Origin: Planctomycetaceae bacterium
GTDB taxonomy: Bacteria; Planctomycetota; Planctomycetia; Planctomycetales; Planctomycetaceae
Assembly (NCBI GenBank): GCA_019636285.1
Contig: JAHBXV010000002.1
Coordinates: 186,001-250,000, forward strand
DNA: 64,000 bases
Reading direction: 5' to 3'
Shown here: positions 28,893 to 46,319 of the stretch, piece by piece
How positions within the stretch are numbered: position 1 is the stretch's first letter
How the letters are laid out: each line of letters opens with the position of its first letter
Program-made: the position numbers and the translations under genes
The notes under the pieces: model-generated
Database searches by the model: none
What the model saw: only the letters and a program-made list of their open reading frames with translations
What the model was told of the DNA's origin: nothing

Positions 28893-29474
28893 CTACCTGG
28901 GTTCGCTGAAAACCAGATAGTGGTACACGAAGAACCGGATGAGGGTCGAAACTCCGAGCACCAACGGGACGGCGATCAGGACCGATGGCTGAAAGAGTGT
29001 TTCGAGCACCGAGAAGCCGAGGTACTCGCCCACGCGATGCACGACGTTCATCAGGATGTACCGGATGATCTGTCGCCTCAACAAACTGCCTGACGCTCGA
29101 AAGACGTATCGCCGGAGCCCCAGAAAGTTGATGACCGAGACCGTCACCAGCGACACCAGGAATGCCACTTGTGCGGGGAGACCCACGAGATTGTGCAGGC
29201 TCCAGGTGATGCCCAGGTGACACGCCAGGGACACGCCAAGCCAACTCAGGTACCGGAGCGACGTCTGCCGAGCCGTGACGGGGCGTTCGCTGGCGACCGA
29301 TGACGGGTCATCAACAGCGGGAAGTCCGGCGGGCGGAGCGGGCATTGTCGGCACGGGCGGGACCGCTTCTGGTTCTAGAGGTGGTTTCAAAACCCTCTGG
29401 ACGACGGGGTGTGTCCCCGATTTCGAGACGTTTTGCAGCCACCAACCGGGTTTTGAAACGTGTTCTCGTTCCAT
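28893..29474 (-). CDS. GtrA-like membrane protein
   Basis: A 193-residue protein with a proline-rich N-terminal tail of about 70 residues and a four-helix GtrA domain. The segments are LSWLGVSLACHLGITWSL, QVAFLVSLVTVSVINFLGL, the helix around LGFSVLETL, and VLIAVPLVLGVSTLIRFFVY. The motif NFLGLRRYVF and the closing RFFVYHYLVF are typical. GtrA proteins are thought to flip or present polyprenyl-linked sugars. The true start could lie further in because the first 70 residues are not part of the domain. It ends 62 bp from the sulfotransferase gene, which converges on it, and lies 24 bp downstream of the GH3 gene. Confidence 0.8.
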   Translation of the reverse strand: MEREHVSKPGWWLQNVSKSGTHPVVQRVLKPPLEPEAVPPVPTMPAPPAGLPAVDDPSSVASERPVTARQTSLRYLSWLGVSLACHLGITWSLHNLVGLPAQVAFLVSLVTVSVINFLGLRRYVFRASGSLLRRQIIRYILMNVVHRVGEYLGFSVLETLFQPSVLIAVPLVLGVSTLIRFFVYHYLVFSEPR

Positions 29475-29498
29475 CGAGACGACGTGACGGATGCCCGT

Positions 29499-31226
29499 TC
29501 AGAGGACATCGCTTTGCGACGAGACCAGCTTCTCCGAAAAGACGGCGTCGGTTTCCTCGACGATCCGGGCCAGATCGTCAAGGCGGGCATGATCGGTAAT
29601 CAGGAACGGGTGTTTGTACTGTTCCAGAGTTCCGCCGCTGCGTGCGAGCTGGAGCAAGTCCCATGCGCGCCAGGTTCCCGACGGCAGCACATCGAGATGC
29701 AGCGGCTCGAAGAGCGTTTCGTGCCGTTTGCGTTTGTAGAGATAGTTCTGCTCGCCCATGGCTCGGTCGATGGCGATGGCGAGATCGGCGCGTTGTTCGA
29801 CGGACAGTGTGTTCGACGATTCAATCAGCAGACGATAAGCCGTCTGCTCGTGCGCACGAGGGGGAACGAGTGAAAAATCGCCCAGGGGGATCCCGGTGGC
29901 GATCGCGGCTTCGCGCACGGCGGAGACGACCTGATTCTCGGTCAGTTTCTCGCCAAAGACATCGGACACCCGGCTCCCCTTGTGCAGGAACTCGACGATG
30001 GGTGTCTTCTCGTGCCAGTCGATGACCCGCACGACGTCATGAATGTTGTATCGATACAGGCCGCTGGTGGTGGTCAGCAGGATGTAGTACTCCTTGCCGG
30101 TCTCCAGATCCGCGGCTTCGAGGATCGTTGGCGAAGGAGAATCCATTTCGGCGACGGGGATGAATTCGAAGAAAGCGCTCGTTACGTCGAGAATCCCGCC
30201 GGGCGTTCCGTCTTCCTTGGGAATGCTCATCCGGGTTTCGCTGGCAATCAATCCAATATCTCGCCGAGGAACATCGCCGAACAGATCGGTGATCTGGTCG
30301 AGATAGGCCCGCGCGGGACCACCCAGCCAGCAGGCAATCAGGCCCATGCCTGGCCAGATATCCTTCGGGTCAAGTCGGCAGGTCCTTTCAACGATCTTTT
30401 CGAGTTCGGCTGCCCGTTTGGGATCGGCCGGCAGATTGCGTTTCAACCACGATCGAAGCGAATAGGGGAATTTCAGATCTGACGAGTACCCTCCGTTGCG
30501 GACCTCGCGAATCAGTTGTTCGGCGTGTTCCGTTCCGAACCGGGCGAAATGCAGCAGGATGCCGGGGTTGGGGGCCACGCACATCCCCAGGTTGCGATGC
30601 AACGCCACGCGCCAGTTGAGGTAGCCGCGGGTCTGGGCATCGGCCCAGTTGGCGGCGTTGGCAGGCAGGCAGTAGCTGCGCTGAACGATCCCCGGGTTCA
30701 TGCTCGCGGTGAGACCGCTGAGGCTGCCGCACGGGATACCGGCCTCGGTCTTGAACTCGCTGACGACTCCGCCGAATCCGACCTTGGCCTGCAGGAACAG
30801 GTGTGGATACTTCTCGAAGACCTGCAATCCCCACATCGACCAGCCGCGGCGGTAGTCATCCAGATACTGTTTGGTGACCGGAATGAATTTGCGCGTGCTG
30901 GTCGTTCCGCTCGTCAGCGAGAACATCACGACCTGCTCGTCGCGAAACATCGCTGAGACTTCACCGCGTTTCACCCGCTCGATGTACGGCAAATAGTCGT
31001 CGTACTCCGAGATGGGCATCCGTCGCTGGAAGTCGGCGAGCGTGTGGAGTTCGCGGAATCCGTGATCCTGCCCGAAAGCCGAATCGCCGTGCTGGCGCAG
31101 CAGTCTCGACAGCAACTGGTGCTGGACCTCGCGCGGCTGCATGGTCGCGTGATGAAAGGCCAGGCGTTCTTTCGCGACCTTGCGGGCGAGAAATCGGCCG
31201 ACCAGCGAGACGAGGGAATTGAGCAT
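29499..31226 (-). CDS. GH3 family adenylate-forming enzyme
   Basis: About 575 residues from the ATG at 31226, which has GAGG about 8 bp upstream; the open frame continues 27 codons further. The protein matches the GH3 family, best known in plants for joining amino acids to auxin or jasmonate through an acyl adenylate. The phosphate-binding loop is FSLTSGTTSTRKFIPVT, followed by the family blocks EAGIPCGSLSGLT, FFEFIPVAEMDSP and YYILLTTTSGLYRYNIHDVVRV. The C-terminal domain begins around DVFGEKLTENQVV. In this locus it could activate a fatty or polyketide acid, or attach an amine to it. It belongs to the leftward transcription unit with the reductase, PPTase and megasynthase. Confidence 0.88.
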   Translation of the reverse strand: MLNSLVSLVGRFLARKVAKERLAFHHATMQPREVQHQLLSRLLRQHGDSAFGQDHGFRELHTLADFQRRMPISEYDDYLPYIERVKRGEVSAMFRDEQVVMFSLTSGTTSTRKFIPVTKQYLDDYRRGWSMWGLQVFEKYPHLFLQAKVGFGGVVSEFKTEAGIPCGSLSGLTASMNPGIVQRSYCLPANAANWADAQTRGYLNWRVALHRNLGMCVAPNPGILLHFARFGTEHAEQLIREVRNGGYSSDLKFPYSLRSWLKRNLPADPKRAAELEKIVERTCRLDPKDIWPGMGLIACWLGGPARAYLDQITDLFGDVPRRDIGLIASETRMSIPKEDGTPGGILDVTSAFFEFIPVAEMDSPSPTILEAADLETGKEYYILLTTTSGLYRYNIHDVVRVIDWHEKTPIVEFLHKGSRVSDVFGEKLTENQVVSAVREAAIATGIPLGDFSLVPPRAHEQTAYRLLIESSNTLSVEQRADLAIAIDRAMGEQNYLYKRKRHETLFEPLHLDVLPSGTWRAWDLLQLARSGGTLEQYKHPFLITDHARLDDLARIVEETDAVFSEKLVSSQSDVL

Positions 31227-31281
31227 CGATGACCTCGATGAATAACCGTTCGACACGGTGGTTCGAGTTTCAGGACAGCGG

Positions 31282-32046
31282 CTAAACGTGAACGGCGGCT
31301 CCGCCATCGACGATCAGCGTCTGTCCCTGCACGAGATCCGAAAGCGGACTGCACAGGAACAGAACGGCATCAGCCACATCGGTCGCCTCGAGCTGGCGTT
31401 CGCCCGTCATCGTCTTGTAAGAGCGCGCGTCAAACATCTGCTGGGCGCCAGGAAGAAGTCGCGTGGAGTCGGTCGGCACCAGGCCCGCCTGCACGACGTT
31501 GAAATTCATGCCCTGATCGCCGAATTCGAGCGCCATATGCCGAACGAGACTTTCGAGCGCCGCCTTCGAACTGCCGATCAACCCGTACATGGGGAGCGCC
31601 ATGTGCGAACCATGGCTGGAGATGGCGACAACTTTGGCACGGTCGCGTGCCCGTTCCAGCAGCGGATGAGCCGCCTGCACTAGGAACAAGAGGGCCCGAA
31701 CATTCGTGTTCATGGTGGCTTCGAAGTTGCGCGGCGTCGCGGCGAGCAGTGGACGGAAGCCGCCGGAAGCCGCGTTGCTGACGAGAATGTCGAGCCGGCC
31801 GAACGTTTCGCCCACGAACTCCATCATTGACTGGACGTCGGGCTGCTCGCTGACATCGGCTCGAACGACGGCCACGCGGCGACCCATCTCGGCAATTCGT
31901 TCAGCCGTGCGATCGGCTTCATCGCGAGACGAGACGTAGTTCAGAACAATATCCGCTCCGGCTTCGGCCAGGCGGAGAGCGGTCGCACGACCGATGCCCC
32001 GCGAACCACCGGTGACCAGAGCAATTTTGTCATGCAGAGAAATCAT
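31282..32046 (-). CDS. SDR family enoyl-ACP reductase, FabL-like
   Basis: A 254-residue NAD(P)-dependent short-chain dehydrogenase. The nucleotide-binding motif is VTGGSRGIGRATALRLAEAG and the C-terminal block is LVQGQTLIVDGGAAVHV. The catalytic pattern is Y-x6-K (YGLIGSSK) rather than the usual Y-x3-K. That spacing is characteristic of enoyl-ACP reductases of the FabI and FabL type, and the surrounding SKAALESLVRHMALE resembles B. subtilis FabL. It probably reduces enoyl-thioesters made by the adjacent megasynthase, which has KR and DH but no enoyl reductase domain. It ends 55 bp before the GH3 start and begins 12 bp after the PPTase stop codon. Confidence 0.8.
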   Translation of the reverse strand: MISLHDKIALVTGGSRGIGRATALRLAEAGADIVLNYVSSRDEADRTAERIAEMGRRVAVVRADVSEQPDVQSMMEFVGETFGRLDILVSNAASGGFRPLLAATPRNFEATMNTNVRALLFLVQAAHPLLERARDRAKVVAISSHGSHMALPMYGLIGSSKAALESLVRHMALEFGDQGMNFNVVQAGLVPTDSTRLLPGAQQMFDARSYKTMTGERQLEATDVADAVLFLCSPLSDLVQGQTLIVDGGAAVHV

Positions 32047-32058
32047 CGGTGAGAGTCC

Positions 32059-32835
32059 TTAGCAGGAGTGTGCAAGTCCGACGCAGGTACCAGCCATTTG
32101 GTCCATCCGTTGGGACGCATGAGCTGGCCACCGGGAAATGGTTGTTGTCCAACAATTGCCGCCCAGTCGTAACGCGGCGAGCCAGCCGCCGGATGGCAGG
32201 TTGACGGTGACGCACGTCTCGACGGTCAATTCGTTATCGCGAAATCGACATTGCGGCAGTCCCTGATCCGAGTTGGCCAGCAAGACTTCGTAGCGGGCCG
32301 GCCGGAAGGGTTCGCCATGGTTGAGGGCTTTGTACAGGGCCTCTTTCAGCGACCAGACTTTGGCGAAGTCGGCTTCTGTTCGTCCCAGGAGTTGTTCGCG
32401 TTCGCGTGATGTCGACCAGCAGCGAACGGCCTTCGCCGCGGCACCGGGGTCATCGACAAGATCAATTCCAACGCGAGTCTCACGATCAACACTGAATGCC
32501 ATCGCCAGTTGGGAGTTCGTATGTGCCAGTGATATTCGCCAGGGAACAAGCCGACCTCGAAAATAGAGCCTGGGCTGAGTCCCGCGACCGAGGCCATTAC
32601 GTGTCACAATCCGCAGGTCACCGGGATCGATGTCGGCCCGGTTCATCATCAGACGCGGGTACAGTCGTGAAAGCAGAAAGTATCGTCCCAATGTCCAGAG
32701 CTCGCGCCGTGCGACATCCGCGAAATGGGGATCGTCGAGATCGCGAACCGCGAACTGGCAATTCGAGGCCAGTTCGTCGCGAAGTTCGTCAATCGTGGCG
32801 ACCGCCCATTCCAGCGGTTGGGGCAGACCAATCAC
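32059..32835 (-). CDS. 4'-phosphopantetheinyl transferase, Sfp type
   Basis: A 258-residue enzyme that transfers phosphopantetheine from CoA to serine of carrier domains. The magnesium and CoA motifs are visible as VGIDLVDD and FAKVWSLKEALYKALNHG. Its start codon overlaps the stop of the 3277-residue megasynthase by 4 bp, so both are likely translated together, and it is the obvious candidate for activating the three ACP domains there. It may also serve the second megasynthase and the free ACPs of the locus. The N-terminal half is less conserved, as is usual for Sfp/HetI-type transferases. Confidence 0.92.
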   Translation of the reverse strand: MIGLPQPLEWAVATIDELRDELASNCQFAVRDLDDPHFADVARRELWTLGRYFLLSRLYPRLMMNRADIDPGDLRIVTRNGLGRGTQPRLYFRGRLVPWRISLAHTNSQLAMAFSVDRETRVGIDLVDDPGAAAKAVRCWSTSREREQLLGRTEADFAKVWSLKEALYKALNHGEPFRPARYEVLLANSDQGLPQCRFRDNELTVETCVTVNLPSGGWLAALRLGGNCWTTTISRWPAHASQRMDQMAGTCVGLAHSC

Positions 32836-35800
32836 CGCTTCACTTCCCCTTTGACGACACTCCGGTAGCTGCGAACCTGATAAATCGGCGATCCGCTCGA
32901 GTCACACAGCAGCAAGTCACAGGTTGACCCCGTCTCGTCGCTGTCGCCTGGCCAAAGTCGGACCGTGAGTGCTTCGCCCGGGCGAGGCAGCTCGGTTCGC
33001 AGAACAAGCAATTCGTCGAAGGCGAGCGGCAATTCGACCCGGCCATCGTTATAGATCCACGCATCGACGCCCCCGGCCACGAAGCAGGCATCCAGGACGC
33101 CGGGATGAGTGACGAGGTCGGCCTGGGCATTCGGAGCCAGCAGAGTTTCAATCGGAGTCGGGGCGATGTGTCCCCAGCCAGCCGTACGCCGCAGGCACAA
33201 TTCCGTCAGGCAGCGGAATGGGCCACCGTGATACATGGGTGCCCCGCCGTCCGGATAGTTCATCGGCCCGAACTTGGCGGTCGGCGCATCCATGGTGAGT
33301 AGTTCGGCCCGGGCACGCTCGATGCGATCGAGCCGCGCGGTCGCCAGCACGACTTCTCCGCCATCCACGTCGATAAGTTTGGCATCCCAACCGCTGTCGG
33401 CTTTAACCGCCACCACCTGCACGCGCCGCGGCAAGGCTGCCTGGAAGTGAAGTGAGTGACGGATGACGAAATCGCGAATCCGCGGAACAGTCGTCCCTGG
33501 GATGACCGCGCGCAATGCTTCCGAGAAAATCTCGATCATCGCGACGGCAGGAAGGAGCGGACGATCGTTAAACCGGTGTTCGGCCAGCAGTGGTTCGGTC
33601 CGCGGCTCGATTCTCAGTTCGGCCTCCCAACGATCTGCCTGACGTGTACACGCCTCAACCGGGAAGACCATCTGCGGAAGCGACTCGCTCTCGTGTCTGG
33701 CCGACTCGATGACGGCGGCGGGCTCCGTTGCGACAGACGTTGCCGCGGGAACAGCCTGAGTTCCTGCGGCAGAGACAATCTTGAAACCTTGAACATCCAG
33801 CAGCGGTTCTCCGGAGCGTGTTCGCAGTCCGAAGTTGAAGACGAGATGCTGATCCGCCTGCTCGACCGCTTCTCCCGTAACCACGCACGAGTCACTGTCA
33901 GCGGTCGGACGATAAACGGTGAGTTCGCGAAGCTGCTGCGGAAGGTGCAACCGTCCCAATGTCAGCGAGGCCCAGCGATCGCAGGCGATGTAGCAGGCAT
34001 CGAGGACGGCCGGAGCCAGTCGCCAACGACTTCCGGTCCGCTGACCGGAGAAACCGCCGCTTGACGGGGGCTCGATCGTCCCTTCGAACCGGCTCTCCTT
34101 CCGAGAAATATCGATCAGGCCGCGAATCGATGGTCCAGTATAGACGCTGCCGTACTTGGGCTCGCCAATCTGCTGCCAGGTATCCGCGTAATCCACCGCT
34201 TGTCGCGGCGTGCCAAGTTCCTTCACCTTTTCGGACGGAGTGCGATTGGCCGCCGGCGCGAGTTCCGCGCGGACCAGGAGTCGGTTGTTTTCGAGAAGAA
34301 CACCCTTGCGGTTCCGGAACGGTGCGACCAACTCGCCAATGTACCGATTGCCTTCACGTCGGACCCGGGCTGTCACCCGTTCGGGATGGCCCGAGAAGAA
34401 TCGCAGGCCGTTCACCACCTCGATATGGCTCATCGTGATGCCGGCGAGATCCGGCCGGAGAACTCCCAGCGTTTCGGCCAGCAGTTCCATGCCGAAGGCC
34501 ATCGGCAGGATGGGGGCATCGCGGTGTTGATGGTCGTACAGGAACGGGTCGGCTGACGGATCGAGCCGTGCTTCGACCCATGCTCGTTCACCGGCGACAT
34601 AGTCCACGATGGTATCGAGCAGTGGACTCTGATTCGTCCGATCCTGCGCGGCCACGAAGTCGTCCCAGACCGCGCGATCGGGGAGGGTCTTATCCAAATC
34701 GAGGCCATCCGGCTTGTCGATGATCAGAATTTCCGGCTCCGGATTCGTCGCCAGCAATTCTTCCAACAGGAACGCAGCTCCTTCGAGCGGCGGCATGAAT
34801 CCCATACCACCGGCCGCCAGCGCGAGCTTACTTTCCGGGCGAGCAGCCATGCCGACTTCATCCCACGGCGGCCAGTGAACCGCGATGGTGCGACAGTCGG
34901 GGCGGCGTCGGCCAAGGTCGTTGCAGAACTTGGCGAGGGCGTCCGATGCCGCCGAGTAATCGGCTTGTCCCAATCCGCCAAATCGTCCGCTCGTGGAGCC
35001 GAAGCCGACGAAGTAACGGACCGGATCGTGTTCCAGCACATCGGCCAGATGCCGTGCCCCATCCACCTTCACGGCGAATGTCTTACGGACCATACCAGCC
35101 TGCTTGCGATCGAACCGGCACGCGGCCTCAACGCCGGCCCCGTGAATGACGCCTTCGATCGGTGCACCGAGTGCGCGGATCGCGGACATCGTCTCTTCGA
35201 CCGAACGACGACTGGCGACATCACAAGAATGATAAGTCACCTTCATTCCAGCCTGGCGCATCGTCCGCAGCGTCTTTTCGACTTCCAGTCCGCGTTCGAT
35301 GCGGTTCCACGCTTCGAGAGGAACTTCACCGCGTTCGCGAGCTTCAGCCATCACCGTGCGGCGAATGGTCTTCAGCTCGTCTGCCGATGCCGTTGTCCAG
35401 GCAGGATCAAATTCCGGCAACGGCGATGAGCCAACAAGGTGCAGGTGGACGCCGAATCGCAGCCCCAGTTCCCGGGCGACGACAGCCGTCACGCCGCGAG
35501 CCCCACCGGTGATGACCCAGGCGCTTCCGGCCGTTGGTCCCTGAGCAATGTCAGCCGAGGCTGGCACCGGGAGACCCGCGAGACGGAAACGCTGGCCGCG
35601 AGAGTAGGCGACTTCGCACAATTCAAAAGGTTGATTCAATTCCGCTCGCAACTGGGCCATCACCCGATGCGGTTGCTCATCGACCGGAAAGTCGACGACA
35701 CGGGCGGGAAGGCCGCCGAACTCGCGTCGCAACGCCTTCCAGAACCCCGTATGCGAACCGCCATCGGCACCGACCGGACTGCCAGACAGCCCGAAGTCGC

Positions 35801-38800
35801 CACCCATGAACGTGAGGGCCGTCATCGTGGCTCGATCGGCAAGTCCAGAAGCCGCGACATGTTGAGCCCACAACTGCAAAAGTCGGAACACCGGAACGAA
35901 ACGCTCTGCGTGATCGCTCGCGGGAAGTTCCTGGCTCGAACGGGGTGCCACAACAAACAGGTGCTGGATCGGCGCCCCGGTTGTCAGAGCGTTAAAGGCA
36001 TTTTCGGTAGCGGCCAGATCGCCGTTCCAGTTCAGATGCTCAACTTCGATGCCATCCTTCCGCAGCGCGACAATCAACTCCTCGGCGATTTGGCCCTGTC
36101 CATGGACCAGCGTCCGACCGGTGATGGTGAAACGGTTGGCACTCTGGTCATCGCCAGTCACCTTCTCCCCAGCGGTCGGAAGGGGACGCAGAATGACGCG
36201 ACGCATGACGCGATCGGCAACCGGCGGCAAGCCTTTGAGCGGATTCGCGGCTTCCCGCTGCGGCGACACCGAAACAGTCGTGGCGCGGTTCGTCGCTGGA
36301 GTCGCACCGGTCGCTCCGCCGTCTGTCTTCCCTTGGAAGAAACTGGACAGAGGAATCGTCGAGTACTGGTCGGCCACTTCGCGAGGAGTCGGCCCTGGCG
36401 TGATGCGGACCTGAGAGACCTCGGGCCGCATCACGACGCTGATCTGGTTGTCGACGCGACGGATGGTGTTCATCGTCGGATGTGCGGTGATCCGCTGACG
36501 ACGGCCGTCGAACTGGTCTCGCAGCAGAACCTCCGCCGATTGCGACGAGATGCCGTCGTTTTCGTACTTCTTCAAGAGATCCTGCAATCGTTCCAGACGA
36601 TGGACCGAGTGCGGCGGCGTCGGATGAGTCGGCTTCAGCAGCAGCGCGTGATTGGTGCCGATGAGGCGGGTGAGGTTCTCACGCACGATCATTTCATCCC
36701 GATCGTATTCGATGTAGCACAGCGAATCGGTCGGGTAGTGGCTGAGGCAGACGCTCCAGGCGCCGTTACGGCGGGCGTCACGCAGAATAGCGATCGCTTC
36801 CGGAATGGTCGCGGCATGCTGCAGCATCCGCTTCACCAGAACCGGGTGAATGTCGCCTTGCGCGGTCACGTCACGCGGGGCCCGATCGAGCAACAATGTG
36901 CTACTAACGGACAGGCCCTTCTCGTTCGTTCCGTTGATCCCGGCGAGTTGGCCCGAGACGCTGAACGAAACGTGGCGGTATCCCTGACTCGGCTGGCGGA
37001 ACTGCACAATTCGCCGCAGGCTGTCGGCCAGACTCAACGCCAGCGACGAATCTTCGTTCGCCGCGTGGATCAGCCGGTTGCGCCCGTTGGCACGGCTGGT
37101 TACCGCGAAGTGAACACAGCCGGGCACATAGTCCTCACACAGTCCCAGGTTGTGAGCCACCAGAAAATCGAGCGGAAGCTCGGCACCGTCGGCAATGCCG
37201 CGAAGTTCGGCCAGTTCGAGTTCGCCGAAGTAACGGGTGGGCTCATGCAGAGCCTGGTCGAGTTCCGGCATGTTGGTCAGTCGGCTGCCGTACCGGGAAA
37301 TCTGGCTTTCCAGAATCCGGCGGATGGCGTCCCGCTGATGTTTACCGTGGGCCAGACCCAACTCGTACGGATCGCCGCCGCAGACCAGCCGCGTGACGAG
37401 TTCTGAGGTGGATTCGGCAAATGGCTCGTCCGGTTCCGCAGTCAGCGTCGCGACCGAGGTGACCACCTCCGGAGCCTGTTGAGTTGATTCGTCCTGCGAA
37501 GCCTGCGCGGCGACTGGTGCCACTGGAGCTTGAGGAGTCGAAGCAATTCGTTCGGTGGTCAGGAAGTCGATGATGTGTCCCAGCGACGGGAACTGATCGA
37601 GCGACAAGTCGCTGACTTCGTCCGCCAGCCAGTTCAATTCGAACTTCTGGGCACACTCGCCCAGCATCTGGGCTTTCTTGATGCTGTCGATGCCGAGGTC
37701 GGCTTCGAGATCGGCATCCAGCTCGATCATCTCGGCAGGGTAGCCCGTCTGATCGACGATGTAATCTGTGACGAACGCCTGCAACTCGGCACGACTTGGC
37801 AACTGGCCGCGTGAACTCGCCACGGGTGCCGAGGCCGCGACTGCAACGACCGGTTCGGCAATCGGAATCGCAGCCGGAGCGACCGTGGGGACCGGTGTCG
37901 GTGTTGATCCCGCACGTTCCGTCGTCAGGAAGTCGATGATGTGTCCCAGCGACGGGAATTGATCCAGCGACAGATCGCTGACTTCGTCGGCCAGCCAGTT
38001 CAGTTCGAACTTCTGGGCACACTCGCCAAGCATCTGGGCTTTCTTGATGCTGTCGATGCCGAGGTCGGCTTCCAGATCGGCATCCAGTTCGATCATTTCG
38101 GCTGGATAGCCCGTCTGGTCGACAATGTATTCGGTGACGAACGCTTGCAGTTCCGCCCGGTTCGGGAGCTTGCCGCGTGAACTCGCGACAGGTGCCGGGG
38201 CAGCAGCCACGGGCTCCGTGATAGGAGCGACAGCCGAGGCGGTAACTGGAGCGGCGGCCGGTGCTGCTCCAGTGCGTTCCGTGGTCAGGAAGTCGATGAT
38301 GTGCCCCAGCGACGGGAACTGGTCGAGCGACAGGTCGCTCACTTCGTCCGCGAGCCAGTTCAGTTCGAACTTCTGGGCACACTCTCCTAGCATCTGGGCT
38401 TTCTTGATGCTGTCGATGCCAAGGTCGGCTTCCAGATCGGCATCCAGTTCGATCATTTCGGCCGGATAACCCGTCTGATCGACGATGTATTCGGTGACGA
38501 ACGCCGTCAGTTCCGCGCGGTTCGGCAGTTTGCCGCGCGAACTCGCGACAGGTGTCGGGGCAGCCGCCAAAGCGACGGGTTCTTCGACCTTCGGAGTCGA
38601 GGCGGTCACGAAGGGAACCACGGCTGGTTCCGGCTCCGGACTGCCGACGGCGCGTTGCCGGTTCTGATCCTTGCGACGCTGGGTCGCGTCGAAGTGCAGA
38701 ATCCGGGAAGAAGGATCAGACACAGGCGATGCTTTCTCTGTGACAGCAAGAACGGTATTCGGGGCACTTGCGGGCGGAGTCAAGACGCCGCGCTGTGCAA

Positions 38801-41800
38801 GGGTCGTCACGATGCCGGCCAACGGATCGACACCTTGCGAGTCGCGAGGGTCGGTCGGAAGAACGGTCAGGCGAGCGTCCCCCACGGATTTGCGAACCAG
38901 GTTCGTCAGCACCTGTTTCGGCCCGCATTCGACCGCCAGGGTCACGCCCTGCTCTTCGAGCCGATGCACCATGTCGACGAAGTCCATCGTCGTCACCAAC
39001 TGACGGGCGAGATTCTCGCGGATGACTTCCGGATCGATGACAAGTTGATTTCCCACGCCGGACAGGAGGGGGACCATTGGCCGAGCGATCGGCAGAGACT
39101 TTAGACGTTCCCGGAATTCGCCAACTGCAGCTTCCAGAAGAGGCGTGTGATAGGCTGCGGGAACCGACAATGGCTTACAGACAATCTTCATGGCCTTCAG
39201 CGAGTTCTCGAACTCGCGAAGTTCATCCACCATTCCACCGACAACGGTCTGTTCCGGGGAATTGATGTTGGCGAGGTAGACCTCGCCGGGGAATCGCGCG
39301 ATGGCTCGCCGAACGGTGTCGCCGTCCGACGCGACAGCCATCAGGCCGCCGCCGGAGACGCCGAATTGGGAAACGACCTCGGCACGATGCTGCGTGGCAA
39401 TCAGGGCGTCGCGGAACGTCAACGAACCAGCCACGACCAACGCGGCGTACTCGCCATAGCTGTGTCCGCAGACAAGCACGGGACGAACGCCGCGTGCCTT
39501 CAGAGCCGCCGCGTGCAGCAGGTTCATCACCAGCATGGTCAGTTGCGACGGAAGCACTCCCGCCGAGGGATTATTTGTCAACGCGACCACCGTGGGGCAG
39601 CCCAGATCCGTCAGCACGCGATCGAATTCCGCGATCTTGCTGGCGAGCGACGGAGTGCGCTCCAGCAAACGAGCGACCATTCCTTCCGAGTGCGACCCCT
39701 GCCCCGGGAACAACATGGCCCATCGATGAGCCTGACCGGGCTTCGCGGCGGAAGCAGACGCCACCTTCGGCTTCGTGGTCGTCACGACCGGACGTTGCGG
39801 ACACTTCTCGCGGCTCTCCAGGAGCACGCTATAACCCATCCCCGTTTCCGAGAGGTGATTGACGGCAATCAGGCCATGCCCTTCGGGCGTCGATGCGTAA
39901 ATCGGTTCGGCCGAATTCGGCAGCGCGGCTTCCGGGACTCCGCTCGCGGTATTGAAGCTCTTCACGCCGAAACGCGGCGGAACTTTTCCGTTTTCGAGTT
40001 CGAGGACGGCCTTGGCGACGGACACCATGCCCGTGGCCCCGCGCACATAACCAATCTGTGGAGTGATGCCCGTCAGACGCACAGCATCGGACTCGCTGTT
40101 TCCATTGGCTTTAGACAACAATTCCGCTTGCGGGGGTGTCCACTCGGTGGCCTCGAAACCGGACGCTTCAAGGACGCCAATCGACTGCGGCTGCACGCCG
40201 GCCAGTTCGCAGGTTCGCTCGGCAGCGGCGGCGAAGGCAACTTCCGGCTCTTCGTACCGGGAGACCTGACCAACACCGCGAATCACGGCGCGGATCGGGT
40301 CGCCATCGCGTTCCGCATCGGCCAGACGCTTCAGAAGGACGACCGCCACGCCTTCCGCCGGCAGGACGCCGTCGAAGTTCTTATCGAACGGCGACTTCGC
40401 ATTGCCCTGGCTGAGCATGCCATTTCGCTGAAGAGCCTCGAACAGAGCGGCATCCATCGCCTGCTGACCGGCAGCGCACAGAACCATGTCGGACACGCCG
40501 GTTTGCAGCATTCCCACGCCGGCGTGCATGGCCGCCAGCCCAGAGACTTCGTCCGAGTCGATCGCGAAAGCACCGCCCATGAAATCGAACGACTTCGAAA
40601 GCCGCGAAGCGAGCGTGCTGCTCGTGAAACTTCCAGTTTCATCCATCAGCGCGGGCATCTTCTCCAGGAGACGCTTTTCGAATCGAAGCAGGGCTTCCTC
40701 GATTTTGTCTTCGGGCAGACCATCGGCTCGCAGCAAATCTCCCAGAATCTTTTGCATATGAGGCAGACGAAGGCCCAGTTGCAGCGAGATCGCGAAGTCA
40801 CCGCCGAAGATCGTGCCGACGACCACCGAGGCGCGTGACCGGTCATAGTCGCGCTTGCTGTATCCGGCATCCGACAAAGCCTGGTCTGCTGCGTCGAGCA
40901 ACATGAACTGCAAGGGGTTCGCGTTGGCGATCTGCTTCGGCGGAACCTTATGCCGTTTCCAGTCATAGACGAAGTCGGTGATGTATCCACCACGAGTGGT
41001 CGGAACCGGTTCACCTGCGGCTTGTTTCTCCGCGAACAGAACGTCCGCATCCCAGCAGCGTCCGGCAGGCAGGTCGCACTTGGGATCCTTTCCGGAAACC
41101 AGGAGTTCCCAGAGCGCGGCCTTGTTCAGCGCGCCGGGGAGAATCGTCCCCACGCCAAGAACCGCGATCGGCTCGAAGGAAACACGGCCGGCTTCGACGG
41201 ACTTGGTAGACCGCAGGTTCCCCGGAACAGCGACTCGGGACTTCCCGGTTTCGCCGGGAAGAAGTCCGTCATCCAGAACCACGTGGACGTTCAATCCGCC
41301 GATCCCGAACGAGTTGACCGCACAACGACGCGGCTTCCCGTTCGATGACTTTGTCCAGTCACGCGGCTGGCAAGCCACTTCGAACGGAATGTTCGCCCAG
41401 TCGATTTCCGGATTCGGCGTATTGAAGTTGATCTGCGGCGGAATGACTCCGTTCTGCATCGCCAGCACGGACTTCAGCAGTCCCGCGATCCCGGCTGCTT
41501 CGAGCGTATGTCCAATGTTGGCCTTCACGCTGCCGATCGGAATTCGGCGGCCACCGGCCAGACCGGGCGGGAAGGCACGCGACAGACCCTTCAATTCGGT
41601 GGCATCGCCGACCTGCGTCGATGTCGCATGGCATTCGATATAGTCCAGCGACGTAGGGTCGACCATCGACGAGTAGGCACGCTGAATCGCCGAAATCTGG
41701 CCTTCCGGTCGCGGAGCCCACAGGCTCTTCCCGCGACCGTCGGACGAAACACCGATCCCGCGAATAACCGCCAGAACGCGATCGCCATCGGCCAGCGCGC

Positions 41801-42665
41801 GGTCGAGTGTCTTGAGGACAACGATTCCATAGCCGTCGGAACTGATAAGGCCGTCGGCGTCGGCATCGAACGGCCGCGACCCGCTGCCGCTGATGGACAT
41901 AGCCATCGAGAACAGGACCAGGCCATACCACTTGCTATAAGAGGCCCCGCCCGCCAAGGCCATGTCGATGTCGCCGCGCTGCAGCGCCTGGGCTGCCTGG
42001 CTCATCGCCATCAGCGACGACGCGCAAGCGGCGTCGACGACAAATGTTGGTCCCTCAAAGCCATGCACGCGGGCAATCAGCATCGCCGCGTTACTGGCCA
42101 CGAATTTCATGTCGCGCACGGATTCCTCGGACGGCATCTCCTGGCGGACGCGTTCGACGAGTCGCCTGGCCAGGTTGGCTCGTTCCGCGGGCGAACAAGC
42201 GCGGAAGTCGTCGTCGCGGCGGAGAATGTCTCCCGCCATTGCGGCATACCGGGCATAGCCAACATCGCCGGCCAGACAGCTTCCGCCGGAATGACCGATA
42301 TAAACGCCAGTCCGCGCATAAGGTGTTCGGCTTGGGTCGATTCCCGCGTCGCGCAATGCCGAGGATGCCACTTCGCACAACGTCAGATGCGCGGAATCTG
42401 ACTCACGCAGCAATTTGTCGCTGATCGGGCAAACCCGGCGGTCGATCGGCCGTTCGGGGACGATGCCCCCAAGATCGGAGTAGGTTCGGCCCGCCTTGCC
42501 GTGTTCGGAGTCGAAGTAGAGGTCTCGGTTAAGACGCTCCTCGGGAACCGGCCCGATGGCGCTCCGCTTCTCGACCAGTAATTTCCAATACTCCGAGACG
42601 CCGTCGCCTCCCGGCATCCGGCAACCCATTCCGACAATCGCGATTGGCTGGAACTGCTGACCCAC
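32832..42665 (-). CDS. PUFA-synthase-like megasynthase KS-KS0-AT-ACPx3-C45-KR-DH-DH
   Basis: A 3277-residue multidomain synthase starting at a GTG with a strong GGAAGGA site upstream. KS1 (about 1-455) has Cys214 in DAACASS and the two histidine motifs. A second KS-like domain (about 490-955) has Glu706 where the cysteine should be, as in chain-length factors. The AT domain (about 1000-1310) has Ser1069 in GHSYGE. Three ACPs carry phosphopantetheine serines at 1419, 1539 and 1661, each in LGIDSIKK, the form seen in PUFA synthases. Residues about 1755-2110 are a C45/AAT Ntn-hydrolase domain with candidate nucleophile Cys1850 (PGCVHFAV), GTNEKGLSVS and IGTNHALLL. KR (NADP site around 2386) and two DH domains (His2712 and His3030, each with a later LDAC) follow. 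No enoyl reductase domain is present. Confidence 0.93.
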   Translation of the reverse strand: MGQQFQPIAIVGMGCRMPGGDGVSEYWKLLVEKRSAIGPVPEERLNRDLYFDSEHGKAGRTYSDLGGIVPERPIDRRVCPISDKLLRESDSAHLTLCEVASSALRDAGIDPSRTPYARTGVYIGHSGGSCLAGDVGYARYAAMAGDILRRDDDFRACSPAERANLARRLVERVRQEMPSEESVRDMKFVASNAAMLIARVHGFEGPTFVVDAACASSLMAMSQAAQALQRGDIDMALAGGASYSKWYGLVLFSMAMSISGSGSRPFDADADGLISSDGYGIVVLKTLDRALADGDRVLAVIRGIGVSSDGRGKSLWAPRPEGQISAIQRAYSSMVDPTSLDYIECHATSTQVGDATELKGLSRAFPPGLAGGRRIPIGSVKANIGHTLEAAGIAGLLKSVLAMQNGVIPPQINFNTPNPEIDWANIPFEVACQPRDWTKSSNGKPRRCAVNSFGIGGLNVHVVLDDGLLPGETGKSRVAVPGNLRSTKSVEAGRVSFEPIAVLGVGTILPGALNKAALWELLVSGKDPKCDLPAGRCWDADVLFAEKQAAGEPVPTTRGGYITDFVYDWKRHKVPPKQIANANPLQFMLLDAADQALSDAGYSKRDYDRSRASVVVGTIFGGDFAISLQLGLRLPHMQKILGDLLRADGLPEDKIEEALLRFEKRLLEKMPALMDETGSFTSSTLASRLSKSFDFMGGAFAIDSDEVSGLAAMHAGVGMLQTGVSDMVLCAAGQQAMDAALFEALQRNGMLSQGNAKSPFDKNFDGVLPAEGVAVVLLKRLADAERDGDPIRAVIRGVGQVSRYEEPEVAFAAAAERTCELAGVQPQSIGVLEASGFEATEWTPPQAELLSKANGNSESDAVRLTGITPQIGYVRGATGMVSVAKAVLELENGKVPPRFGVKSFNTASGVPEAALPNSAEPIYASTPEGHGLIAVNHLSETGMGYSVLLESREKCPQRPVVTTTKPKVASASAAKPGQAHRWAMLFPGQGSHSEGMVARLLERTPSLASKIAEFDRVLTDLGCPTVVALTNNPSAGVLPSQLTMLVMNLLHAAALKARGVRPVLVCGHSYGEYAALVVAGSLTFRDALIATQHRAEVVSQFGVSGGGLMAVASDGDTVRRAIARFPGEVYLANINSPEQTVVGGMVDELREFENSLKAMKIVCKPLSVPAAYHTPLLEAAVGEFRERLKSLPIARPMVPLLSGVGNQLVIDPEVIRENLARQLVTTMDFVDMVHRLEEQGVTLAVECGPKQVLTNLVRKSVGDARLTVLPTDPRDSQGVDPLAGIVTTLAQRGVLTPPASAPNTVLAVTEKASPVSDPSSRILHFDATQRRKDQNRQRAVGSPEPEPAVVPFVTASTPKVEEPVALAAAPTPVASSRGKLPNRAELTAFVTEYIVDQTGYPAEMIELDADLEADLGIDSIKKAQMLGECAQKFELNWLADEVSDLSLDQFPSLGHIIDFLTTERTGAAPAAAPVTASAVAPITEPVAAAPAPVASSRGKLPNRAELQAFVTEYIVDQTGYPAEMIELDADLEADLGIDSIKKAQMLGECAQKFELNWLADEVSDLSLDQFPSLGHIIDFLTTERAGSTPTPVPTVAPAAIPIAEPVVAVAASAPVASSRGQLPSRAELQAFVTDYIVDQTGYPAEMIELDADLEADLGIDSIKKAQMLGECAQKFELNWLADEVSDLSLDQFPSLGHIIDFLTTERIASTPQAPVAPVAAQASQDESTQQAPEVVTSVATLTAEPDEPFAESTSELVTRLVCGGDPYELGLAHGKHQRDAIRRILESQISRYGSRLTNMPELDQALHEPTRYFGELELAELRGIADGAELPLDFLVAHNLGLCEDYVPGCVHFAVTSRANGRNRLIHAANEDSSLALSLADSLRRIVQFRQPSQGYRHVSFSVSGQLAGINGTNEKGLSVSSTLLLDRAPRDVTAQGDIHPVLVKRMLQHAATIPEAIAILRDARRNGAWSVCLSHYPTDSLCYIEYDRDEMIVRENLTRLIGTNHALLLKPTHPTPPHSVHRLERLQDLLKKYENDGISSQSAEVLLRDQFDGRRQRITAHPTMNTIRRVDNQISVVMRPEVSQVRITPGPTPREVADQYSTIPLSSFFQGKTDGGATGATPATNRATTVSVSPQREAANPLKGLPPVADRVMRRVILRPLPTAGEKVTGDDQSANRFTITGRTLVHGQGQIAEELIVALRKDGIEVEHLNWNGDLAATENAFNALTTGAPIQHLFVVAPRSSQELPASDHAERFVPVFRLLQLWAQHVAASGLADRATMTALTFMGGDFGLSGSPVGADGGSHTGFWKALRREFGGLPARVVDFPVDEQPHRVMAQLRAELNQPFELCEVAYSRGQRFRLAGLPVPASADIAQGPTAGSAWVITGGARGVTAVVARELGLRFGVHLHLVGSSPLPEFDPAWTTASADELKTIRRTVMAEARERGEVPLEAWNRIERGLEVEKTLRTMRQAGMKVTYHSCDVASRRSVEETMSAIRALGAPIEGVIHGAGVEAACRFDRKQAGMVRKTFAVKVDGARHLADVLEHDPVRYFVGFGSTSGRFGGLGQADYSAASDALAKFCNDLGRRRPDCRTIAVHWPPWDEVGMAARPESKLALAAGGMGFMPPLEGAAFLLEELLATNPEPEILIIDKPDGLDLDKTLPDRAVWDDFVAAQDRTNQSPLLDTIVDYVAGERAWVEARLDPSADPFLYDHQHRDAPILPMAFGMELLAETLGVLRPDLAGITMSHIEVVNGLRFFSGHPERVTARVRREGNRYIGELVAPFRNRKGVLLENNRLLVRAELAPAANRTPSEKVKELGTPRQAVDYADTWQQIGEPKYGSVYTGPSIRGLIDISRKESRFEGTIEPPSSGGFSGQRTGSRWRLAPAVLDACYIACDRWASLTLGRLHLPQQLRELTVYRPTADSDSCVVTGEAVEQADQHLVFNFGLRTRSGEPLLDVQGFKIVSAAGTQAVPAATSVATEPAAVIESARHESESLPQMVFPVEACTRQADRWEAELRIEPRTEPLLAEHRFNDRPLLPAVAMIEIFSEALRAVIPGTTVPRIRDFVIRHSLHFQAALPRRVQVVAVKADSGWDAKLIDVDGGEVVLATARLDRIERARAELLTMDAPTAKFGPMNYPDGGAPMYHGGPFRCLTELCLRRTAGWGHIAPTPIETLLAPNAQADLVTHPGVLDACFVAGGVDAWIYNDGRVELPLAFDELLVLRTELPRPGEALTVRLWPGDSDETGSTCDLLLCDSSGSPIYQVRSYRSVVKGEVKR
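37550..38540 (-). repeat. Three near-identical tandem ACP units
   Basis: The three ACP modules of the megasynthase repeat at 366 and 360 bp (120-122 residues), with serine codons at 37683-37685, 38049-38051 and 38409-38411. The coding sequence of the core is almost identical between copies, while the Ala/Pro/Val-rich linkers differ. Such arrays multiply carrier sites in PUFA-type synthases and can expand or contract by recombination. Confidence 0.9.
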
Positions 42666-43403
42666 TCTGAATTCCTTCCTCGGACGATCAATGCCGATTT
42701 GGGAAGTTGCCCCTACCCAGAAAGGCTTCCACCCCTCTATGAGATTTAACTCTACGAGGCGTTTTCAAATTGGAGCAAGTTTAGAAGATGCAACATGGGC
42801 ACATTCTGGGCAATTTGGCTGGTTTTGCCGTTACTCTCGCTAACAGGTGTTGTCAACCATCCACAACGATTGTGTCTTCTGGAACAGCCTCGCCGATTGC
42901 AGGAGCTGAGTCTTCGTCAACGTCGCGCCAGGTGGACCGGGCCTGTTCCTTTTCGGAAACAGGCTGAAGTCTTCCTCAAGATCGCGCGGTGCGACGCGGC
43001 AACCCGGAGATCCCCATTTTTCGCTGCGATGCCCGTGGTGTTTGAATCCGGCAACTTCGGCCGATAGAGGCATCGTCTCCATTGAGAACCCCCGGGATTT
43101 GCCACCGAGCGACGCGTGATGACCAGGAAGCGTTAGAAAGGTCAATGTGGGAAGGTCGAGTGGCTTGCGTCGAGTTTCGCGATTCTGACGATTTTGAGCA
43201 GAGGCGTGGCACCGGTCTGCCGGCGCATCCGTTCCAATTGGACCAATTCGCACAACCGGACGATAAAGCAGATACGTCATGACCGGACCGGGTATGTCGG
43301 AGCGTTCCCGGTCGATGGTCATGCTCGTTGGGGGTGTGCCACCCGCGGGTGCGGCAGTGCCGCGGAGGCGACGGCCACGAACTGGCCGATACGGGGGATA
43401 GAA
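42666..43403. other. Divergent control region of the two halves of the locus
   Basis: About 740 bp lie between the leftward megasynthase and the rightward TolC gene. The part next to the megasynthase (about 42700-42800) is clearly richer in A and T than the surroundings and is the likely promoter zone of the leftward unit. A small inverted repeat, CACAA-CGA-TTGTG, occurs near 42860. A 426-residue open frame on the minus strand spans much of this stretch and runs into TolC, but shows no family features. I support no gene here. Confidence 0.5.
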
Positions 43404-45413
43404 GTGGCAAGACGTCCAGGTGAATGGATTCGCCGGATGGCCGCGTGGGGGCAGACAATTGCCCGGCGCGTCCCGTTCCCGAATCCTCGACACGCAATTC
43501 TGCGGCTGACCATTGTCGGAACCGGCGTGAGCGTCGGTGTGCTGCCTCCCATGCTGGGGGCCGACGACGAACCGCGTTGGCACTCTGTCTTTCCCGAAGA
43601 GCGGACGCTCCGGCCGACGCTTCCGCCGCGCTACCAGACGAATGTTCCGCAATCTTCGGAGCCTGCCACGATTCTGAAATATGAAGACCGTGAAGAATGG
43701 CGGCTGTCGCTCGACGAGGCGATCCACGTTGCGTTGCAGAATGCCGAGGCCATTCGGGTTGCCAACGGCACGACGATTCGCGGGTCCGGCCAGACCATTT
43801 ATGACGTGGCCATCGCGAACACGAAAATCGACGCGGAACGGGCGCGGTTCGACCCGGAAGTGACGCTCGATAATACGTTCGGCGATCGGGATGTGCCCAC
43901 GGCCGGCATCGTGGTTCCCAACCCGCGTCAATTCTCGGTCAACGGCTTCAACCTCAGCACGTACAACATGGAAGCCGGCATCCAGAAGCAGAACTCGCTG
44001 GGCGGGGTCGCGCGATTGGACGTCGAAACGAACGTCCAGCGCCAAAAACCGCGCATCACGACGCTGAATCCGCTGACATCGACACGCGCTGGAGTCAGCT
44101 ACGTGCAGCCGCTGCTGCAAGGGGCGGGGCGCGACGTCAACCTGGCACCCGTCCGGATCGCGCAGCTCGATACCGACCGCACCTATTTCCAGACGCGCGG
44201 CAGCATCCAGGATCTCACTTACAGCGTGATCCAGGCCTACTGGCGCCTCGAATCGTCGCGAGTCTCGGTCTGGGCGCGGGAACAGCAGGTCGAACAGGGG
44301 AAATTTGCCTACGAGCGCGCCCAGGCCCGGATGCGACAGGGACTCGCCGACAGTGCCGAAGTGGCGCAGACGCGCCTGGCCTATGCGAACTTTCGATCGG
44401 CAAGCGTCGTCGCCAAGAGCAATCAGTTGGATGCGGAGAACTCGCTGCGCAACCTGCTCTTCCTGTCACCCGTTTCGGACACCGAGATTCTGCCGGTCAC
44501 CTCTCTGCATGCGGAGCCATTGGACTTCAACTGGGAAGAGCTGCTGGAACTGGCGGACCGCAACCGTAACGACTTGCAGGAACTGCGCACGGTGGTTCAA
44601 TCGGACCAGCAGAAAATCACGCTGGCCAAGACCAAGACGTTGCCTCAACTGAACCTTGTCGCCGGCTATGGCTGGACCAACACCCAGGGAGAGCGCCAGG
44701 GCCTGTTCGACCCGACCATTACCGGGTACAACGCCAGCGGCAGCCGCTTTCCGGATTGGATGCTCGGCGTCAACTTCGACATGCCGCTCGGCTTTCGCGA
44801 AGGCCGGGCGAATGTTCGCGGTCAAGAGCTGAACTATTCGCGCGATCTTGCCAACCTGCGGCAGACGCAGCACGCGGCGATTCACGACGTCGCCGGTGCC
44901 CTGCGGAGCATCGTCCGCAGCTATGCCGAGTTCGAATCGTACCGGGAAACCCGGATCGCGGCGGCGGAAAACCTCGATCAACAGCGGACCGAGTACGAAA
45001 ACGGCCGGACCACGTTCCTTGATGTCTTGCAGGCTATTGTCAACTGGGGCGACGCGGTCAATGCCGAAGTTGATTCGCTGGCACGATTCAACGTCGAACT
45101 GGCCAATCTGGAGCGTCAGACCGGAACCATTCTGGAGACGCACGCCGTCCACTTCATGCAGGAAAAATTCTGCACGGACGGACCGCTGGGACATCGTCGC
45201 CCCGTGGAATACCCCATGAATGTTCGGCCGACCGGAAACCAGACCCGATACGGTGCCGAGGCTGAACCGCCCGAAAGGAAGTACTTCGATCAGAATCGCA
45301 CGAAGACAACTGGTGGCAGCCGGGCAACGGGCGATGCAACAACTGACTCGGACAGTTCCTCTCGAACCGGTAACACCGTTGCGGCGCCGATCGTTCCGAC
45401 GTCGAGTCGCTGA
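43404..45413 (+). CDS. TolC-like outer-membrane efflux protein
   Basis: About 669 residues from the GTG at 43404, which follows a GGGGG stretch at suitable distance; an ATG at 43437 is the alternative. Arginine-rich residues followed by LRLTIVGTGVSVGVLPPMLGAD form a signal peptide. Two TolC-type repeats are recognisable: SLDEAIHVALQNAEAI near the start with QAYWRLESSRVSVWAREQQV, and later ELADRNRNDLQELRTVV with LPQLNLVAGYGW. The protein would form the outer-membrane channel for the MacAB-type pump encoded just downstream. The C-terminal 90 residues are low-complexity and probably disordered. The thioesterase follows 75 bp later. Confidence 0.88.
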   Translation: MARRPGEWIRRMAAWGQTIARRVPFPNPRHAILRLTIVGTGVSVGVLPPMLGADDEPRWHSVFPEERTLRPTLPPRYQTNVPQSSEPATILKYEDREEWRLSLDEAIHVALQNAEAIRVANGTTIRGSGQTIYDVAIANTKIDAERARFDPEVTLDNTFGDRDVPTAGIVVPNPRQFSVNGFNLSTYNMEAGIQKQNSLGGVARLDVETNVQRQKPRITTLNPLTSTRAGVSYVQPLLQGAGRDVNLAPVRIAQLDTDRTYFQTRGSIQDLTYSVIQAYWRLESSRVSVWAREQQVEQGKFAYERAQARMRQGLADSAEVAQTRLAYANFRSASVVAKSNQLDAENSLRNLLFLSPVSDTEILPVTSLHAEPLDFNWEELLELADRNRNDLQELRTVVQSDQQKITLAKTKTLPQLNLVAGYGWTNTQGERQGLFDPTITGYNASGSRFPDWMLGVNFDMPLGFREGRANVRGQELNYSRDLANLRQTQHAAIHDVAGALRSIVRSYAEFESYRETRIAAAENLDQQRTEYENGRTTFLDVLQAIVNWGDAVNAEVDSLARFNVELANLERQTGTILETHAVHFMQEKFCTDGPLGHRRPVEYPMNVRPTGNQTRYGAEAEPPERKYFDQNRTKTTGGSRATGDATTDSDSSSRTGNTVAAPIVPTSSR

Positions 45414-45488
45414 ACGGGTTCAGCCTCAAGGAGTTCATCAGAACCGTCGCGGGCGGCCGTCGGGAACCATCGAACGAGGATTGGAATC

Positions 45489-46319
45489 GTGCCGGCGGAT
45501 GCCAATCCTGACGAGTTGCCGTCGCCGATCGTTTCGGCTGACGCGAGGCCGCTTCCATGGCTGGATCGTGTTCCTGACGACGAGCGGCGCGTGCGGCTTT
45601 TTTGCCTGCCGTGTGCTGGCGGCTCGTCGACGGCGTACGACGGCTGGCACGAGGGGCTGGGAGAGTCCGTCGAGACTCTTCCCATTCTATTGCCCGGGCG
45701 AGGCACGCGATTCCTGGAGCCCGTGGTCCCGAGTGTTCCCGCTTTGGTCGAACAGATCACGGAAAGTCTTGGCCCCTCGCTTAGGGCTCCCTATGCCTTG
45801 TTCGGGCATAGCTATGGGGCGCTCCTGGCATTTGAAATGGCCCGCTCCTGTCGCCGCCTCGGATTGCCGTCTCCGTCGATCTTGCTTGTCGCCGGCTTTC
45901 GCGGGCCGAAGACTCCGGCACCCGCCATCGCTGCCGCCGAATCTTCCGACGACGACCTTGTGAATTGGCTCGAAGACGGGAGTGGCGCGCGCGACCCGGT
46001 ATTCGAGAATCCAGACTTCCGCCGCCTGTTTCTGGATGTGTTGCGCGGGGATCTGACAGCTATCGCGAGCTACCAGTATGCCGCGGAGCCACCGCTGAAG
46101 TGCCCGATCGTCGCCTTCGCTGGCGAACAGGATCCGGTCGCGCCGCGGCGCGACATGCTGGCGTGGCGGCACGAAACCGCCGACCGATTCAACTTGCATG
46201 TGCTGCCCGGCCGTCATCTGTTCGTTCGGACGGCTGAATCCAGGCTCCTGCCGCTCATCGGGCTGGAACTCGCCGCGCTGGCGAAAGATATCGTCCGAGC
46301 TCCGGAAATCGCTGGCTGA
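45489..46319 (+). CDS. Type II thioesterase (alpha/beta hydrolase)
   Basis: A 276-residue hydrolase of the GrsT/RifR type that usually removes wrong or stalled acyl groups from carrier proteins, or releases products. Visible features are FCLPCAGGSS for the oxyanion region, nucleophile Ser in YALFGHSYGALLAFE, Asp in AGEQDPVAP and His in LPGRHLF. It starts at a GTG with GAGGA 8 bp upstream. Its place between the TolC gene and a converging ABC transporter operon, within the lipid locus, suggests a proofreading or release role for the two megasynthases, neither of which ends with a thioesterase domain. Confidence 0.9.
   Translation: MPADANPDELPSPIVSADARPLPWLDRVPDDERRVRLFCLPCAGGSSTAYDGWHEGLGESVETLPILLPGRGTRFLEPVVPSVPALVEQITESLGPSLRAPYALFGHSYGALLAFEMARSCRRLGLPSPSILLVAGFRGPKTPAPAIAAAESSDDDLVNWLEDGSGARDPVFENPDFRRLFLDVLRGDLTAIASYQYAAEPPLKCPIVAFAGEQDPVAPRRDMLAWRHETADRFNLHVLPGRHLFVRTAESRLLPLIGLELAALAKDIVRAPEIAG

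Follow-up and report, generated by a model that had tools for sequence, protein, structure and literature searches.

Gene and Domain Organization of the Synthase Locus

The window (the whole 64,000-nt stretch of DNA analyzed here, from contig JAHBXV010000002.1 of a Planctomycetaceae bacterium) encodes a PUFA-synthase-like megasynthase in which a C45-type Ntn domain lies between the tandem ACPs and the KR. The synthase gene belongs to a same-strand run that continues with genes for a 4'-phosphopantetheinyl transferase (PPTase), an SDR, and a GH3-family ligase, with overlaps or a 12-nt gap between the listed ORFs. The features of this run, and the evidence for each, are:

32832–42665, minus strand: 3277-aa PUFA-synthase-like megasynthase, KS-KS0-AT-ACPx3-C45-KR-DH-DH (ORF translation, Pfam, NCBIfam, motif positions)
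38832–39713, minus strand: AT domain, residues 985–1278, with the malonyl-type motif GHSYG at 1067 (Pfam scan, motif position)
37551–38498, minus strand: three tandem ACPs, residues 1390–1705, with serine blocks at 1416, 1536, and 1658 (Pfam scan)
36336–37403, minus strand: C45/AAT Ntn domain, residues 1755–2110 (NCBIfam, Pfam, AlphaFold model, structural alignment)
37119–37121, minus strand: codon of Gly1849, after which a cut is predicted (Gly-Cys motif)
37116–37118, minus strand: codon of Cys1850, the presumed Ntn nucleophile (motif, structural alignment, 28-row profile)
37050–37052, minus strand: codon of Asp1872 in the NED block, aligned with IAT Asp121 (28-row profile)
36651–36653, minus strand: codon of Asn2005 in the TNH block, aligned with IAT Asn246 (28-row profile)
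34746–36188, minus strand: preKR stretch and KR, residues 2160–2640, with the KR Tyr block at 2570 (Pfam scan, conservation)
32856–34628, minus strand: two DH domains, residues 2680–3270, with His motifs at 2711 and 3029 (Pfam scan)
32059–32835, minus strand: PPTase, overlapping the synthase stop by 4 nt (ORF list, profile scan)
31282–32046, minus strand: SDR, whose best NCBIfam match is FabL enoyl-ACP reductase with 268.6 bits, cut-off 328 (profile scan)
29499–31307, minus strand: GH3-family acyl-amido synthetase, the presumed downstream ligase (profile scans, tree)

Pfam and NCBIfam scans of the synthase identify two KS domains, one AT, three ACPs, the C45 domain, a KR, and two DH domains; the motifs of the KS, AT, ACP, KR, and DH domains are presumed to have their customary meanings. 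The first KS has its Cys block at residue 211, which in the second KS is replaced by DSDEVSG at 703. An additional conserved stretch (preKR; residues 2160–2375) separates C45 from the KR proper. Neither a thioesterase domain nor an amino-acid-loading domain was detected in the Pfam scan of the whole synthase. The top NCBIfam match of the entire protein is omega_3_PfaA (TIGR02813), with 802.1 bits, below the cut-off of 1010.1.

Divergent from the synthase, the window encodes a TolC-type outer membrane protein, followed by an ABC ATPase, a MacB-type permease, and an HlyD-type adaptor (43194–50069), which possibly export the synthase product. In genome G039 (locus L042), the synthase likewise has a divergent TolC-type neighbor, with a weaker match. 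Further along the window is a second PKS region (50898–63278, plus strand) that encodes an AMP-ligase-KS-AT-ACP protein (50898–57800), KS genes (57716–59041 and 62067–63278), and a StlD/DarB-type ketosynthase (60697–61845, plus strand; 507.7 bits, cut-off 450). This region is suggestive of a pathway of dialkylresorcinol or aryl-polyene type.

Identification and Predicted Fold of the C45 Domain

An earlier note, made from the nucleotide sequence alone, had assigned the insert to the C45/AAT family, and this identification is confirmed, together with the boundaries, motifs, Cys1850, and domain order that it gave. In the whole protein, the NCBIfam model NF040521 (C45_proenzyme) matches residues 1764–2082 with 138.9 bits (cut-off 85). 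The isolated domain scores above cut-off with both this model (144.3 bits, cut-off 85) and Pfam AAT (PF03417; 45.5 bits, cut-off 23.2), the latter being absent from the match list of the whole-protein Pfam scan. A chance match or artefact was rejected on the grounds of the high profile scores, the open frame, and the recurrence of the insertion in many genomes.

The domain carries Gly1849-Cys1850, GTNEKGL from residue 1912, and TNHALL from residue 2004. Compared alone with IAT, it matches at an E-value of only 0.005 and with the Cys three positions out of register, whereas a 28-row profile places the Cys on Cys103 and, compared with 2x1d, aligns the GC, NED, and TNH blocks with Gly102-Cys103, NWD121, and TN246H of IAT. 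We take Asp121 and Asn246 of IAT to be catalytic residues.

An AlphaFold2 model of residues 1744–2126, built from an alignment of 28 sequences (the window and relatives), has a pLDDT of 87.8 and a pTM of 0.89. Its top Foldseek match is IAT (E 2.2e-21), and VIA-align superposes it on the IAT precursor over 325 residues (Z 37.6, 2.5 Å, 17% identity), with scores of Z 31.1 for acid ceramidase and Z 30.8 for NAAA. Many of the VIA-align rows start at Cys1850 (model residue 107); this residue pairs with residue 126 of human NAAA, residue 143 of human acid ceramidase, and residue 1 of both penicillin V acylase and a penicillin G acylase, and the titles of the structure entries for uncleaved NAAA and ceramidase give C126A and Cys143Ala. 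Cys1850 directly follows Gly in model strand 106–112, and the sole internal stretch of the model with pLDDT below 50 (model residues 100–102) is just upstream of it. By these alignments, Cys1850 is predicted to occupy the Ntn position at which mature Ntn-hydrolase chains begin, as the earlier note had supposed.

Distribution and Phylogeny

Of the four C45 matches in the window's own genome, only that of the window lies in a frame of synthase length. The 28-row profile matches 23 of the 170 genomes in the family sample (own genome included; E 1e-40 or better) and 19 of the 397 in the class sample. The GTDB collection yields 29 loci, mostly in planctomycete MAGs, alongside Gimesia, Rhodopirellula, Stieleria, strain TBK1r, and some MAGs that carry the labels Acidobacteria and Deltaproteobacteria. 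The same C45 insertion recurs in other synthases, with 45 distinct synthase-type domains at first count and 48 after later additions. Where the order is readable, the embedded C45 follows the AT or ACPs and precedes the KR; deviations comprise L060, in which no AT was detected, and a few loci with an extra KR or KS. Four further proteins (L045, L046, L047, and L048; 501–541 aa, open frame) represent free C45 of the synthase clade. An ACP is detectable before C45 in three of the four; by eye, their carrier serine is missing and the C45 Cys is kept.

In a 52-row tree, 40 synthase-type C45 domains form one clade (support 100/99) against 12 free-standing C45s, and the four free proteins of ACP-C45 type nest inside it. 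Given this topology, C45 was probably gained by the synthase line a single time and afterwards also moved out of it. The window's domain falls in a 16-row clade (98/89). This tree is the second of two: the first also included L004, which was read in the wrong frame, and the long branches L056, L088, and L089. The truncated L040 and L057 are in neither tree, nor are L165–L167, which were added later. The degenerate L099 and L101 group with the free C45s in the first tree and with the synthase clade in the second, and their position is uncertain.

Retention and Loss of the Nucleophile Cys

Across the 45 distinct synthase-type rows, the nucleophile Cys is present in 31, lost in 13, and unreadable in one (at a contig end). 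The 13 replacements are Gly in ten (one of them truncated), and Ala, Met, and Val in one row each; three loci found later have Cys, Ala, and Ser, the last in an otherwise degraded site. At least two losses are required by the 52-row tree. The earlier note had regarded homologs without this Cys as evidence against its reading, and such homologs do exist (13 of 45 rows), with none in the window's own clade, where all 16 rows retain Cys. The invariant Cys of alignment A1 does not count as independent evidence, since Cys-bearing rows were selected for it, and the 16-row clade is used instead.

Most of the domain is retained in every Cys-less row except four: L057, which is truncated, and L056, L099, and L101, which are degraded. 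A Cys-to-Gly domain is modeled as an Ntn fold (pLDDT 88.4; Z 33.9 to IAT), from an alignment that contains living relatives. For two Cys-less pairs dN/dS is 0.07 and 0.28, with dS near saturation; for three Cys-bearing pairs it is 0.05 to 0.18, with dS high in most, and two further pairs are saturated. Because a Cys-less copy keeps the modeled fold, and given the dN/dS of 0.07 and 0.28, C45 appears to have some non-catalytic role. Extended to the whole family, the same observations would accord with C45 as mainly a structural or docking module that has lost its catalytic activity even in Cys-bearing copies. We consider this quite unlikely: the 31 Cys rows, which span planctomycete families as well as the MAGs labelled Acidobacteria and Deltaproteobacteria, also keep the Asp and Asn blocks, and the Cys persists in the free ACP-C45 proteins, which are not part of a synthase.

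If the domain is active, self-cleavage before Cys1850 would be expected by analogy with other C45 enzymes, for which passages of PMC10194958 describe Ntn activation by cutting of a Gly-Cys bond (Gly102-Cys103 in IAT, Gly121-Cys122 in Tan); the calculated pieces of the window synthase are 196.8 and 156.2 kDa. The earlier note had suggested that the synthase might split itself in this way to mimic separate PfaA/PfaC-type subunits. As a purpose, this is not borne out. That the main use of C45 is to cut the synthase into KS-KS0-AT-ACP and KR-DH-DH halves, with later catalysis incidental, is highly improbable: lineages in which the Cys has become Gly, Ala, Met, or Val cannot cut in this manner, yet keep the domain at the same position in a similar synthase; none of the loci with the frame readable on both sides has the gene split at C45; and the catalytic-site Asp and Asn are retained along with the Cys. 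Where ACPs are on a separate protein, the break is elsewhere than at C45. The Cys-less relatives also suggest that synthases of C45 type can do without self-cleavage, and splitting would likely be a consequence of activation.

Natural pseudo-enzymes, in which a Cys-less C45 lies beside a thioester-reductase-like gene, are encoded at L051, L055, L058, L154, L155, L166, and L167; the C45 site is more widely degraded in L154, L155, L166, and L167. At L057 (7996–15261, plus strand), the C45 match has shrunk to about 125 residues in an otherwise full-length synthase.

Partner Genes of C45 Synthases

The 28 embedded Cys-bearing loci are accompanied by GH3 (7), an oxoamine-synthase-like domain (4), a class III aminotransferase (1), a reductase-like protein (5), or no recognized partner (11, several of them on short contigs or at contig ends). 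At the 15 loci with a dead or truncated C45, the partner is a reductase in nine and GH3, oxoamine synthase, or aminotransferase in none, with no partner seen at the remaining six (five cut by contig ends). Thus, GH3, oxoamine synthase, and aminotransferase genes adjoin a Cys-bearing C45 in 12 of 12 cases, and a dead C45 with a recognized partner adjoins a thioester-reductase-like gene in 9 of 9. These counts leave out G107, in which GH3 is present and the Cys lies off the contig, and the four free C45 proteins. Among loci with a partner, Fisher's test of Cys state against partner gives p = 0.0007, and p = 0.20 once the loci are collapsed by hand into lineages, so the association is suggestive and confounded by descent.

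Partner classes were assigned by phmmer with one query each, with Pfam and NCBIfam scans for L042, L055, L073, L079, L081, and L083 only. Pfam recognizes a reductase type (NAD_binding_4) in L042, L073, and L079, a PLP domain in L083, and a class III aminotransferase in L081; by NCBIfam, the reductases of L042 and L055 are thioester-reductase-like and the L083 domain is BioF/SPT-like, all below curated cut-offs. At L082, L083, L084, and L087 (about 1–4143, plus strand), KS-ACP-oxoamine-synthase-ACP proteins are encoded beside the C45 synthase. Loci of this kind, in Rhodopirellula, TBK1r, and Stieleria, represent a possible PKS-type sphingolipid pathway; a sphingolipid route by PKS plus oxoamine synthase is described in passages of PMC12134224.

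The window's GH3 protein scores 117.3 bits against the OlsH model (NF052613) and a second GH3 protein of the same genome scores 105.1 bits, against an equivalog cut-off of 620, and an OlsH identity was therefore rejected. C45-linked GH3s group with those of genomes G018 and G064 (93/87, branch not starred), apart from unlinked paralogues. In these two genomes, GH3 directly follows argB-, argD-, and argF-type genes, named here from their Pfam families (L047, 3539–8606, minus strand; L151, 165–4887, plus strand), hinting at ornithine as the amine. At L047, which encodes a free C45, the GH3 gene is within the same 20 kb. A common operon for the argBDF-like genes and the free ACP-C45 gene of G018 was considered and rejected: a divergent gene intervenes, and only GH3 directly follows the argF-like gene.

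A Proposed Role in Chain Release

Through its Cys, IAT acylates an amine with the acyl group of a CoA thioester. We propose, with a probability of roughly 0.55, that C45 serves within the synthase as an Ntn acyl-transfer domain that processes itself and removes the finished chain from the enzyme. The folded domain would cut the Gly1849-Cys1850 bond, giving pieces of about 197 and 156 kDa that would stay together via the folded C45 domain. Cys1850 would then accept the acyl group carried on the phosphopantetheine of a neighboring ACP, and the acyl enzyme would be resolved by water or an amine. For the window lineage, water would be the first choice: the free acid could be activated with ATP by GH3 and joined to an amino acid, perhaps ornithine. 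Where relatives encode an oxoamine synthase, the amino product would more naturally be N-acylated directly, in ceramide-like fashion.

The only AT of the window synthase is of GHSxG type, and the Pfam scan shows no thioesterase domain, so a release function appears to be missing from it; according to passages of PMC12895367 (2026), the motif is GYSxG in PfaB, which serves marine PUFA synthases as terminal acyltransferase, and GHSxG in malonyl types. C45 directly follows the ACPs and is positioned where it could meet them when loaded. The planctomycete GH3 enzyme OlsH converts free fatty acid, ornithine, and ATP to N-acyl-ornithine (in the available part of PMC12493201), against which stands the low score of the window's GH3 for OlsH (117.3 bits, cut-off 620). 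That all Cys-less domains with a partner lie beside a reductase is consistent with release being a task that can pass to another enzyme. On the other side of the balance, a reductase is also present at five Cys-bearing loci, and 11 Cys-bearing loci have no recognized partner. Of the two consequences of C45 activity raised in the earlier note, release is the better supported, in that partner genes track Cys state; this support weakens from p = 0.0007 to p = 0.20 when counted by lineage.

The five Cys-bearing loci at which a reductase is a second candidate releaser might instead point to an editing hydrolase, by which C45 clears stalled or wrong chains from the ACPs in the manner of a type II thioesterase, and another enzyme releases the product. 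No other releaser was recognized in the window's gene run, and we hold this reading to be very unlikely.

Also weighing against release, C45 enzymes that act on carrier proteins, AzsT and DobA, hydrolyze an N-succinyl amide of the bound substrate, the chain not being released (in passages of PMC10445470 and PMC12154687). By this precedent, the window's C45 might strip an N-acyl group, serving as protection or as starter, from an amino-acyl chain that itself remains on an ACP of the synthase, and amine-related partners do adjoin Cys-bearing domains. The absence of an amino-acid-loading domain from the Pfam scan of the window synthase argues against this, as does the position of GH3 as the last gene of the run, since an OlsH-like GH3 would need a free acid; amide cutting on the carrier is thus unlikely.

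Building on chain release as the preferred reading, a broader scheme is offered tentatively, and we regard it as somewhat doubtful: self-cutting might expose an in-line N-terminal Cys as the release nucleophile, a class distinct from thioesterases, reductases, condensation domains, and PfaB, which could serve N-acyl-amino-acid, ceramide-like, or amine lipids according to the partner gene, and which would decay to a folded pseudo-enzyme once a thioester reductase takes over.

Significance

Chain release by PUFA-type synthases is still being worked out, with PfaB named as terminal acyltransferase (in the accessible passages of PMC12895367). The mainly planctomycete family of C45 synthases provides a self-contained candidate for release, with natural Cys-less versions as built-in negative controls. 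If the proposed role is correct, it would represent unfamiliar release chemistry, usable for engineering lipids and amides, would provide a self-processed megasynthase, and would offer a route into the little-known amino- and sphingo-like lipids of planctomycetes. No description of a synthase with a C45 domain was found in the open-licence literature, covered mostly as titles and abstract openings with some passages; in the available passages of Shulse and Allen (2011; PMC3098273), planctomycete types I and J are listed without a C45-type domain. The combination of known families in these synthases, along with its spread and decay, is new to us.

Comparison With Known Systems

Arg before N-x-D is a defining feature of acid ceramidase and NAAA. 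These enzymes belong to the same superfamily as the window C45, and their nucleophile positions coincide with Cys1850 in the structural alignment; they are less similar to it than is IAT (Z 31.1 and 30.8), and the RNxD block of acid ceramidase (RNMD) corresponds to ANED in the window, where the Arg is absent. IAT (AAT; peptidase family C45) shares the predicted fold and the Gly-Cys, NxD, and TNH blocks with the window C45. It is, however, a free fungal protein acting on CoA thioesters, whereas the window C45, at 17% identity, forms part of a synthase and has ACPs next to it. Two positions after the Cys, IAT has T and most embedded rows have H or Q. AzsT and DobA, from diazo-compound pathways, are of the C45 family and likewise have carrier-protein-bound substrates, but the same passages of PMC10445470 and PMC12154687 describe them as separate proteins, unlike the embedded window C45.

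In the planctomycete OlsH system, close OlsH homologues share an operon with OlsI (in the available part of PMC12493201). The window ligase is of the same GH3 family, with an OlsH score far short of the cut-off, and the genes scanned at 27532–32835 of the window include no recognized alpha/beta hydrolase, in contrast to the OlsH-OlsI operon. Finally, the window synthase shares KS, malonyl-type AT, tandem ACPs, and KR with PfaA-type PUFA synthases; it differs from PfaA in having KS0 and DH-DH on the same chain, in the inserted C45, and in a score below the PfaA cut-off, and is thus PfaA-like, not PfaA.
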